Of a DNA stretch of 40,602 nucleotides, positions 5,503 through 22,395 are shown piece after piece. The DNA is from an uncultured bacterium (GTDB taxonomy: Bacteria > Desulfobacterota > DSM-4660 > Desulfatiglandales > CALKZT01). The position numbers and the translations under genes were made by a program. Position 1 is the stretch's first letter, and every line of letters begins with the position of its first letter. The stretch is from the NCBI GenBank assembly GCA_938002815.1, contig CALKZT010000096.1, positions 1-40,602 of the forward strand, read 5' to 3'. The notes beneath the pieces were generated by a model. The model did no database searches. It had not been told where the DNA came from and was given only the letters and a program-made list of their open reading frames with translations.

Positions 5503-6552
5503 ATGAAGCTTTCTATAAAAAAACTCCTAATGGGGTCCGGAGGTAAATCCATGGGTATAATATGGGTCCTTTTCACCCTTTTGGCCCTCATCTTAGTCCC
5601 CTGTGGGGATTTAGGGGCTCAAAAGGTTGTGAAGGTGGGTATGTTGAAGCTGGTGAGTTCTGCACCCCTTTTTATCGGGATGGACAAGGGCTTCTTTGAA
5701 GAGGAAGGGATAAAGTGCGAGGCAGTCTATTTTAATTCTGCTCAGCCTATTTCCACTGCACTGGCCTCAAAGGATGTGGACGTGGCAGCCACTGGTCTTA
5801 CCGCAGGTCTTTATAACCTCATAGGCTCAGGAATGGATATGAAGATAGTGGCAGATAAAGGGAGAGAAAAAAAGGGCTTTAAACTGACCGCCATCATGAT
5901 TTCCAACAAGGAGTACGAAAAGGGTACCAGGAAATTGTCAGACCTGAAGGGCAAAAAGATCGGCGTAACCCAGGTGGGCTCCACATTTCACTATATATTA
6001 GGGAGGCTCTTAGAAGAGGAAGGACTCTCCCTAAAGGATGTGGAGGTGGTCCCCATGGGGGGTCTCAAAAACATTGCCGATGCCCTCAGTACTGATGGGA
6101 TCCAAGGGGGTTTTGTGGTACAGCCCCATGTGAGTCTCCTGGAAGAAAAAGGCCTTGGAAAGGTCCTTTTGTGGGTATCAGACAAGATGGACTACCAGAT
6201 TGCCGCGATAGTATACGGGGAGAGGATGTTTAAGGAAAGAGATGTTGGGTCTGCCTTTATGAGGGCCTATAGAAAATCCACAGACTACTATTATAAGAAG
6301 GGCCTCTTGGCCATGAAGGAAAGTAGAGCTTCAGAGGCAGATGAGGTCTTGGGCATTATCTCTAAGTATACGGAGGTGGAAAAAGGGTTTGTGGCAAAGG
6401 GGCTCAACTATAACGACCCGGAGGGTAGACTGGATCTAAAGGATATCCAGAGACAGTTAGAGTGGCTATCCAAGGAGGGGCTTCTAAAAAAGAGGCTTAC
6501 TCCAGGTGAGGTGGTGGACGAATCCTTTTTGAACCAGATCTTGAAGAATTAG
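5503..6552 (+). CDS. ABC transporter substrate-binding protein (NMT1/SsuA-like)
   Basis: Signal peptide; APLFIGMDKGFFEEEGI, VDVAATGLTAGLYNLI, LKGKKIGVTQVGSTFHYIL; exact start uncertain (ATG at 5503, 5530 or 5551). Confidence 0.85.
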   Translation: MKLSIKKLLMGSGGKSMGIIWVLFTLLALILVPCGDLGAQKVVKVGMLKLVSSAPLFIGMDKGFFEEEGIKCEAVYFNSAQPISTALASKDVDVAATGLTAGLYNLIGSGMDMKIVADKGREKKGFKLTAIMISNKEYEKGTRKLSDLKGKKIGVTQVGSTFHYILGRLLEEEGLSLKDVEVVPMGGLKNIADALSTDGIQGGFVVQPHVSLLEEKGLGKVLLWVSDKMDYQIAAIVYGERMFKERDVGSAFMRAYRKSTDYYYKKGLLAMKESRASEADEVLGIISKYTEVEKGFVAKGLNYNDPEGRLDLKDIQRQLEWLSKEGLLKKRLTPGEVVDESFLNQILKN

Positions 6553-6555
6553 GCC

Positions 6556-7299
6556 ATGAAGCTCGTAGTAGAAGGGCTTTGTAAGTCCTATCAGAGGGAT
6601 GGGACAAAAGTCCTTGTGTTGGAAGGACTCAGCTTTGAGGTGAATCAAGGGGAATTTGTCTCAATAGTTGGGCCTTCTGGATGTGGTAAGAGCACATTAC
6701 TCAAATGCATTGCAGGTCTTGAAGGGTCAGATGAGGGCCTTGTCTCTTACCAGGGGAACGGGGATTCCCAAAGACCTCTTTGTTCCATTGTCTTTCAGGA
6801 GCTGGCCCTCTTTCCTTGGCGGAGTGCCCTAAAAAACATAACCTTTGGTCTGGAGGAGCTCCGAATCCCAAAGAGGGAAAGGGAAAGAATTGGAAGGAAA
6901 TATTTGGAGATGATGAGGTTAGGGGGCTTTGAATCCTTTAGACCAAAGGAGCTTTCAGGGGGCATGAAACAGAGGGTGGCCATAGCAAGGGCCATGGCAG
7001 TGGAACCCTACCTGTTAGTGATGGATGAGCCTATGGCCTCTTTAGATGCCATCACAGCCCAAAGGCTCCAAATGGACCTCATGGAGATTATCTCCCAAAA
7101 GGGTCAAAGTGTCCTGTATGTGACCCATAACATCCCTGAGGCAGTATTCCTATCAGACAGGGTCATTGTGCTCACCGAGAGGCCGGGCAGGATAAAAGAG
7201 GAGGTGAGGATCGAAGAGAGTCGGCCAAGGGATCTGGCATTTAAGCTCTCTTCTAAGTTTGTGGGCTATCTGGAGAGGCTATGGAAGCTACTCTCCTAA
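6556..7299 (+). CDS. ABC transporter ATP-binding protein (SsuB/TauB-like)
   Basis: Walker A GPSGCGKST, signature LSGGMKQR, Walker B YLLVMDEP, H-loop VTHNIPEA. Confidence 0.93.
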   Translation: MKLVVEGLCKSYQRDGTKVLVLEGLSFEVNQGEFVSIVGPSGCGKSTLLKCIAGLEGSDEGLVSYQGNGDSQRPLCSIVFQELALFPWRSALKNITFGLEELRIPKRERERIGRKYLEMMRLGGFESFRPKELSGGMKQRVAIARAMAVEPYLLVMDEPMASLDAITAQRLQMDLMEIISQKGQSVLYVTHNIPEAVFLSDRVIVLTERPGRIKEEVRIEESRPRDLAFKLSSKFVGYLERLWKLLS

Positions 7300-20602: not shown

Positions 20603-21238
20603 TCAGGCCAGGACCTTCACCAAGACCTTCCCCACCCCCTTTTCTACCATTCCAAGTCTGCGGGCCACACCGTATGAAAGGTCTATGTCTCTCCCTTTGA
20701 TAAAGGGTCCTCTATCCTTTACAACTGCTACCACCCTTGCCTGGTTTTCTGGGTTGACGATCTCCAATTTCGTCCCAAAGGGCAGGTCTCTGTGTGCCAC
20801 CACAGAGTCATACATGTTATAGATCTCTCCGTTTGCCATGGGCCTGCCATGGTAGCCGGGCCCGTACCAGCTCGCAACCACTTCAAACTCGTTGGGGTAA
20901 TTATATTGCCTGATCAGTAATTTTTGACCTGGGTAAAGCTTCTCAGGGTTCTTTATCTGGTTGTCCTGGATTAGGTCGTTTAGACTCACTCCGAATCTCA
21001 TGGCAATATCCCAGAGGGTATCCCCTGGCATGACTATGTATTGGGTTCCCTCTTCTGCCTTTGGAGAGTTTTGTCCTGGAATCTCTTTTTTAGTGCTTAC
21101 GTTCTTTATTACATCTTGAAAGGATCTTCCTTGTGTTAAGACCCTCATCTTACGGTAATCCGCAAGTTTCATTCCCTTTGGAGTATCAAAAACTTGCTGA
21201 TTTTTGCCAACAGGTGTGCTAAGTAAAGGCGCTGTCAT
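20603..21238 (-). CDS. LysM domain + RlpA-like double-psi beta-barrel protein
   Basis: LysM YIVMPGDTLWDIAMRFGVSLNDLIQDNQIKNPEKLYPGQKLLI; RlpA VVASWYGPGYHGRPMANGEIYNMYDSVVAHRDLPFGTKLEIVN...VKDRGPF. Confidence 0.85.
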   Translation of the reverse strand: MTAPLLSTPVGKNQQVFDTPKGMKLADYRKMRVLTQGRSFQDVIKNVSTKKEIPGQNSPKAEEGTQYIVMPGDTLWDIAMRFGVSLNDLIQDNQIKNPEKLYPGQKLLIRQYNYPNEFEVVASWYGPGYHGRPMANGEIYNMYDSVVAHRDLPFGTKLEIVNPENQARVVAVVKDRGPFIKGRDIDLSYGVARRLGMVEKGVGKVLVKVLA

Positions 21239-21320
21239 ATAGTACTCCTTTGTAAGGGGTTTTTAGAGCCTATACACAGCAGGAATTGTGCCATATTCAG
21301 GGTGAGGGGTCTACAAATTG

Positions 21321-21467
21321 GTGGAAATCTTAAGCCAGGACGATATCGATGCCCTCTTAAACGCCATAAGGGAGGGCAAGGTGGATTTGGAGAAGGATTC
21401 AGACCAGGAAATAGTTGCCAAGCTGGAGGAAGAAAAATCCCAGAAAACCCTTCAAAAAGAAGACTAA
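21321..21467 (+). CDS. 48-aa microprotein with FliM/FliY N-terminal (CheY-docking) motif; not in the supplied ORF track
   Basis: GTG start with upstream GTGAGGGG; translation (V/M)EILSQDDIDALLNAIREGKVDLEKDSDQEIVAKLEEEKSQKTLQKED*; LSQDDIDALL matches the FliM_N-type LSQ-[DE]-IDALL signature; 10 bp before the cheX-like ATG. Confidence 0.65.
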   Translation: MEILSQDDIDALLNAIREGKVDLEKDSDQEIVAKLEEEKSQKTLQKED

Positions 21468-21477
21468 GGAGAGTTGG

Positions 21478-21954
21478 ATGGCCTCACTGAAAGAGATCGA
21501 TTTTTCAGGGTATGTGCAATTGGCGGTTGGGAGCGTCTTTTCCACCATGCTCTCCCTCAAGGCGGAGAGTTCAGACGGAGACTCCCAGGCCCTTTTGGAG
21601 GGGGAGAAGTACATGGGTATGGTGGGGCTTGCGGGAAAGGTTAGCGGTGCCATTTGCCTTACCTTTTCCAAGGAATGTGGAAATCTGCTGGCAGCTTCCA
21701 TGTTGGGTGTTGATCCCGAGGAGGTGGACCCTTCAGAGGCAAGGGATGTGATAGGAGAGCTCTGTAACATGATAGGTGGCAACATCAAGTCTAGGCTCTG
21801 TGATATGGGCTATGACTGTGTCCTCACCATCCCCTCCATTACCACCGGGAAGGACTTCAAATTTGTCCCCCTAAAAGACCCCATATTTTGGGAATACAAG
21901 TTTGTGACCGAGGGTTTCCTTTGGGTGGTAAGGTTATACCTCAAGGAGACCTAA
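21478..21954 (+). CDS. CheX/CheC-type chemotaxis phosphatase domain protein
   Basis: AVGSVFSTMLSL...GMVGLAGKVSGAICLTFSKECGNLLAASMLG...ARDVIGELCNMIGGNIKSRLCDMGYDCVLTIPSITTG; signature [D/E]xIGELxNMIxGNxK. Confidence 0.85.
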   Translation: MASLKEIDFSGYVQLAVGSVFSTMLSLKAESSDGDSQALLEGEKYMGMVGLAGKVSGAICLTFSKECGNLLAASMLGVDPEEVDPSEARDVIGELCNMIGGNIKSRLCDMGYDCVLTIPSITTGKDFKFVPLKDPIFWEYKFVTEGFLWVVRLYLKET

Positions 21955-22005
21955 AGAGGGCACAGGATTTGCTTATCCTTCCAGCATGGAAAAGAGGGGG
22001 GAAGC

Positions 22006-22395
22006 ATGGAGATAGTTTACACCAACAGATTAGGCGGGACAAAGGATCCTGAGAATAAGAGCATCCCTGAGACCAAGGGCTTAAAGTTTAAGGAGATATT
22101 TCAAGACAAGATAAAAAATGATACCCCGGCCAGGACAGAAAAGGAAAATCTCCTCTCCGATCACCTGGAATACCTCTTCGACCTCCTGGAAGGTTATAAG
22201 CATGGCTTGGAGAATGGGGGATCAAAAACCGAGGAGCTGAGGCCTTATCTGTATCAGATGGGTAAAATCTCCCAGCAGTTGCAGGAAATAATTGCCTCTC
22301 CGGCCATATCCGAAGACCTAAAGGAGCTTACAAGGGAGGCACTTCTTGTGTGTAGTAAGGAAGAGGCCCGTTTCCTCTCAGGGATCTATGGCTGA
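22006..22395 (+). CDS. Uncharacterised small helical protein
   Basis: 129 aa ORF with SD-like GAGGGGGG upstream; codirectional with the CheX-like gene; predicted mostly helical from sequence. Confidence 0.55.
   Translation: MEIVYTNRLGGTKDPENKSIPETKGLKFKEIFQDKIKNDTPARTEKENLLSDHLEYLFDLLEGYKHGLENGGSKTEELRPYLYQMGKISQQLQEIIASPAISEDLKELTREALLVCSKEEARFLSGIYG

Follow-up and report, generated by a model that had tools for sequence, protein, structure and literature searches.

Our analysis indicates that the stretch of DNA under study (the window, 40,602 nucleotides, corresponding to contig C96 of a 2.25-Mb, 128-contig genome that is about 91% complete) encodes a 49-residue protein resembling the N-terminus of FliM, directly followed by a gene for a predicted CheX-family CheY~P phosphatase. 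The peptide with which the flagellar switch docks CheY is known to form part of FliM, of FliY and, in some cases, of FliN. Our preferred explanation, which we hold tentatively and as a little short of probable, is that this small protein is a genuine stand-alone FliM_N microprotein that docks a CheY~P-like regulator and, together with CheX, makes up a split, soluble counterpart of FliY that ends the signal. The features of the locus, in window coordinates, are as follows.

20603..21238, minus strand: divergent LysM + DPBB (RlpA-like) gene, the neighbor retained at all three microprotein loci
21278..21293, minus strand: sigma-54-type -24/-12 site, TGGCACAATTCCTGCT, directed to the RlpA-like gene (one match, 0.04 expected)
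21301..21309, plus strand: Shine-Dalgarno-like GGTGAGGGG of the microprotein gene, from sequence, ending 8 nt before the TTG at 21318
21318..21467, plus strand: FliM_N (EIDAL) microprotein gene, 49 residues, from the motif, conservation in genomes G023 and G008, and codon pattern
21466..21471, plus strand: AAGGAG, which from sequence probably serves cheX as ribosome-binding site and overlaps the microprotein stop
21478..21954, plus strand: predicted CheX-family CheY~P phosphatase gene, 158 residues, with ExxN (ELCN) signature, from Pfam PF13690 (E 7e-21) and alignment to solved CheX structures
22006..22395, plus strand: gene for a 129-residue helical protein whose weak homologs in relatives lie close to CheX and flagellar genes

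The microprotein reading frame offers two in-frame starts, TTG at 21318 (49 residues) and GTG at 21321, with its stop at 21467 on the plus strand. The first-pass annotation described a 48-residue, GTG-initiated frame ending 10 bp before a CheX-like gene. Both the frame and the gap of exactly 10 bp between its stop and the CheX ATG (21478) are real, and TTG is the likelier start, since it stands 8 nt downstream of GGTGAGGGG and yields a product that aligns better with the starts of its relatives, which have more residues ahead of "IL" than initiation at GTG 21321 would give. The N-terminal LSQxx[IV]DALL motif is present, and the N-terminal helix that carries the docking motif is SQDDIDALLNAI. 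Across its six frames the window contains a single match to a relaxed FliM_N pattern; 300 windows simulated at its dinucleotide frequencies contain none. The FliM_N identity proposed at first reading was borne out in an HMM search, in which the NCBIfam FliM model TIGR01397 matched at E 6e-4 (residues 3-43 on profile positions 1-42), and the match to the FliY model is weak. AlphaFold2, run on the single microprotein sequence, predicts one helix over the motif (residues 7-18) and a second in the tail (29-46), with a mean pLDDT of 80.

An intact FliM of 324 residues, beginning MPDQILTQEEIDALLGAIRKGEVSLEEE, is encoded on contig C75 of the same genome. The N-terminal segment of FliM (FliM_N, or EIDAL) and the microprotein have the same N-terminal motif followed by the same AIxxGxVxLE stretch, and this genome's own FliM has 15 of the 22 core residues in common with the microprotein. 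Over these 22 positions any two microproteins of the order have 15-19 residues in common, and a microprotein and a FliM of the order 9-15; over the next 15 positions, 5-7 residues are common to the microproteins and mostly 0-3 (at most 5) are shared with the FliMs. As the tail residues are common to the microproteins and mostly not to FliMs, the tail is, by alignment, a mark of the microprotein that is distinct from FliM. Unlike FliM, the microprotein is encoded by a separate gene, has its own 20-residue helical tail, and possesses neither the middle domain PF02154 (at 49 residues it has no room for one, and the one PF02154 match in the genome is on C75) nor SpoA (FliMN_C), for which no Pfam match was found in the microprotein, the window CheX or the 129-residue protein. 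The possibility that the frame is the 5' fragment of a frameshifted fliM or fliY, raised when it was first described, is ruled out by the intact FliM on C75, the intact homologs of the microprotein and its own tail. A PDB search suggested a polyketide docking domain or a WH2 segment (E 0.016 and 0.12); these were dropped in favor of the same genome's FliM, a much closer match.

Profile searches with the microprotein covered 85 genomes of the order and recovered full-length relatives in two other genera, represented by G023 (54% identical) and G008 (60%); 3 of the 85 genomes carry the gene. No further full-length relative was found at E 1e-4 among 395 genomes sampled evenly from the phylum, in which the other matches cover the motif region only and all but one (176 residues) lie in open frames of FliM size. 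Among the named-genome matches listed, at least 14 cover only microprotein residues 3-29 and belong to Pseudomonas or Stutzerimonas records that are presumed to be FliM. Many flagellated, CheX-bearing genomes of the order lack the microprotein, absences that depend on completeness (many are draft genomes) and on the capacity of diverged short frames to escape a search. In the three pairs of microprotein genes, codon differences at third and second positions number 32 and 10, 33 and 9, and 34 and 10, respectively, a third-position excess with Fisher p of 4e-6 to 5e-7; each pair also has 15-22 codons with synonymous differences. Because the differences concentrate at third positions, the gene is, on its codon pattern, protein-coding and under constraint. 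The earlier concern that the frame might not be conserved is thus answered by its retention in two other genera, and a chance open reading frame is ruled out by the codon pattern and the simulated windows. Being short and patchily distributed (3 of the 85 genomes), the gene might also be viewed as what is left, without function, of a duplicated 5' end of fliM, but differences dominated by third positions and a specific tail shared in three genera make such a relic scarcely credible.

The protein encoded directly downstream scores 74.5 bits against the Pfam CheX model, for which the curated cut-off is 27, and its GELCNMI aligns with GELTNMV and GEVTNMI of the CheC/CheX-type chains 3iic and 3hm4, respectively, giving the ExxN signature. 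It shares this signature, its Pfam domain and a length of about 158 residues with stand-alone CheX of the Thermotoga type, from which it differs in being preceded by a microprotein gene and in being one of three CheX proteins encoded in its genome. The overlap of the AAGGAG with the microprotein stop codon suggests that translation of the microprotein and cheX is coupled. The two genes are separate and in different frames in the window, and they are separate in G023 as well. A frameshifted microprotein-CheX fusion was ruled out by the different frames, by a distance of about 80 bp between the genes in G023 and by the failure to detect CheX in G008. In a CheX tree, the window CheX and the microprotein-linked CheX of G023, which is 42% identical to it, are not joined, nor is their union rejected (p-AU 0.12).

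The 129-residue reading frame begins after a gap of 51 bp beyond the CheX gene. Its product is predicted to be a helical bundle, belongs to no Pfam family, has no named-family match and returned nothing significant in a PDB fold search. A 153-residue homolog (28% identity over 94 residues) is encoded in G023 about 4 kb beyond CheX, followed by genes read as fliD, fliS and flagellin, and weak homologs are also found in CheX-bearing contigs of G071, G070, G017 and G064. In relatives these weak homologs have 130-160 residues and are found in motility or chemosensory loci.

The EIDAL motif of the FliM N-terminus is a CheY-binding element (PMC6946799), and the affinity of CheY for the FliM peptide is about 20-fold higher when CheY is phosphorylated (PMC7355467). 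By analogy with the FliM N-terminus, the N-terminal helix of the microprotein would dock a phosphorylated CheY-like response regulator, so that CheY~P would be caught off the motor and its dephosphorylation by CheX promoted, which would help to end the signal; protection or sequestration of CheY~P by the peptide, in place of delivery, is equally conceivable. We infer the CheY~P binding, the joint action with CheX and any effect on motor output alike. The pair is read as a soluble, split FliY because the docking-peptide and phosphatase genes are neighbors, are probably co-translated and lack the SpoA of the C ring. EIDAL and CheC-like domains are both present in FliY (PMC12826062). FliY of the B. 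subtilis type (EIDAL, CheC-like and SpoA) likewise unites a docking peptide with a CheY~P phosphatase of the CheC/CheX superfamily, whereas here there are two genes, the phosphatase is of CheX rather than CheC type, and the lack of SpoA leaves no C-ring anchor. The first-pass annotation had proposed that the two cistrons recapitulate FliM_N plus a CheC-like domain without SpoA; this stands as regards the motif, the CheX-family domain and the lack of a SpoA match, but the window CheX is a free-standing protein with paralogs and not a FliM middle domain.

The pairing of CheX with an EIDAL peptide is supported by fusions in the order that join CheX domains and an EIDAL-like motif. CheX-CheX-FliN/SpoA fusions of 486-515 residues occur in the order, two of them confirmed by Pfam, and four were read:

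L012:1498-2958, L017:1498-3045, L029:942-2456 and L077:5032-6543: two-CheX fusions with a linker and a C-terminal FliN/SpoA

An EIDAL-like motif is present in the linker of two of the four (L012 and L017) and absent from L029 and L077, and genomes G062 and G065 have CheX and an EIDAL-like motif in single chains. In contrast to the window pair, the CheX-CheX-FliN fusions are single chains with tandem CheX domains and SpoA, and the motif is internal rather than N-terminal. The two-CheX fusions with FliN/SpoA represent an unusual C-ring-type, FliY-like architecture in the order.

Adjacency of the microprotein and CheX is kept in the window genome and in G023. In G008 (97% complete), searches detected neither FliM nor CheX nor a CheA dimerization domain, and the microprotein gene is instead followed by same-strand genes for HisKA-REC, MCP, CheW, histidine kinase and REC proteins (L075, 326-7143), a row that is broken by interspersed repeats of about 70-150 nt. 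As the microprotein occurs in G008 although CheX, FliM and CheA all went undetected there, linkage to CheX is not obligatory, and the conserved adjacency that was named at first reading as potential support is seen in two of the three genera. The G008 gene row, with the fact that the motif by itself is a known CheY-binding element, would be consistent with a docking peptide that works independently of CheX, either as a soluble competitor of FliM (a decoy) or as an adaptor for CheY-like proteins, including non-flagellar ones, with the position of CheX reflecting co-regulation only. We consider this somewhat unlikely, as CheX directly follows the microprotein in two genera, the CheY~P signal in G008 is uncertain given that no CheA was found there, and the repeats interrupt the row. 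A broader proposition, possible but doubtful, is that free EIDAL microproteins form a family of general response-regulator adaptors that would dock CheY-like proteins off the motor, hand them on to CheX in genomes that have one, and be retained in G008 without a detectable flagellum, CheA or CheX, as a portable module outside the C ring.

The only neighbor common to all three microprotein loci is the LysM-RlpA gene, whose orthologs there are 53-55% identical and in each case divergent and upstream of the microprotein; the right neighbor of the window triad is an M23 peptidase gene. Neighbors outside the domain searches are named from reading their translations. The constancy of LysM-RlpA as sole shared neighbor could point to a role in the cell wall with LysM-RlpA and the M23 peptidase rather than in chemotaxis, the likeness to FliM_N then reflecting ancestry only. 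This appears quite improbable: the RlpA orthologs of G037 and G016 have no microprotein alongside (in G070 the contig ends there), and no export signal is evident in the sequence of the predicted peptide, whereas RlpA-type proteins act outside the cytoplasm. Perfect sigma-54 consensus sites are found at the same place as TGGCACAATTCCTGCT for the RlpA orthologs of G037 and G016 (L137:2215-2230 and L138:2323-2338, both minus strand). A sigma-54 regulon, perhaps the flagellar one, may include this LysM-RlpA gene.

Reading the translated open reading frames of the window by eye revealed no further flagellar or che gene, in agreement with the first-pass annotation. Elsewhere in the genome, fliM is located on C75, a second CheX on C59, and CheA and a third CheX on C118, which is a flagellar and chemotaxis cluster in which CheA and CheX are confirmed by domain searches and flhB, flhA, flhG, fliA, cheR, cheB and others are read from translations. 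The microprotein profile matched nothing in this genome apart from the window copy and FliM, and no microprotein was seen in the sequenced neighborhoods of the two CheX genes outside the window. The CheX on C59 adjoins a response regulator of REC-STAS type, the pair lying at L034:6291-7510 (G000) and the regulator itself at 6291-7019, and this CheX/REC-STAS arrangement, often with a GAF-type kinase and an HDOD-like protein nearby, recurs in the order (L036, L037, L039, L040 and L042).

The MinD-like ATPase FlhG is reported to interact with FliM through the FliM N-terminus (PMC12826062). Binding of FlhG is reported for this N-terminal peptide in FliM or FliY, a possibility absent from the first-pass annotation. 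As a ligand of FlhG, the free peptide might tune flagellar number, placement or gene expression. The flagellar cluster here encodes a MinD/ParA-type ATPase that was read as FlhG (L168:6402-7274), which, together with the cell-wall genes flanking the locus, makes this a serious rival. However, G008 has the microprotein and no FliM, hence no C ring to regulate, and the CheX neighbor would be left unexplained; we judge a role through FlhG to be unlikely.

The preferred reading of a FliM_N microprotein that acts with CheX is favored by the match of the motif to FliM, the codon constraint, the position of CheX directly downstream in two genera and its ExxN signature, as well as by the predicted motif helix, the CheX-EIDAL fusions and the occurrence of CheA, FliM and further CheX proteins in the genome. 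Counting against it are G008, with no detectable CheX, FliM or CheA, the CheX-bearing flagellated genomes without the microprotein, and the p-AU of 0.12.

The microprotein is rare, occurring in 3 of the 85 genomes searched within the order, and its parts are of known kinds; we found no report of stand-alone EIDAL proteins in the open-licence literature. If the docking is real, a gene for a docking peptide alone, placed before the gene for a CheY~P phosphatase, would constitute a minimal natural device for the control of CheY~P, and would make it testable whether docking and dephosphorylation, which are joined in FliY, work as separate diffusible parts. Short open reading frames of this size can miss annotation, and similar peptides may therefore have been overlooked elsewhere.
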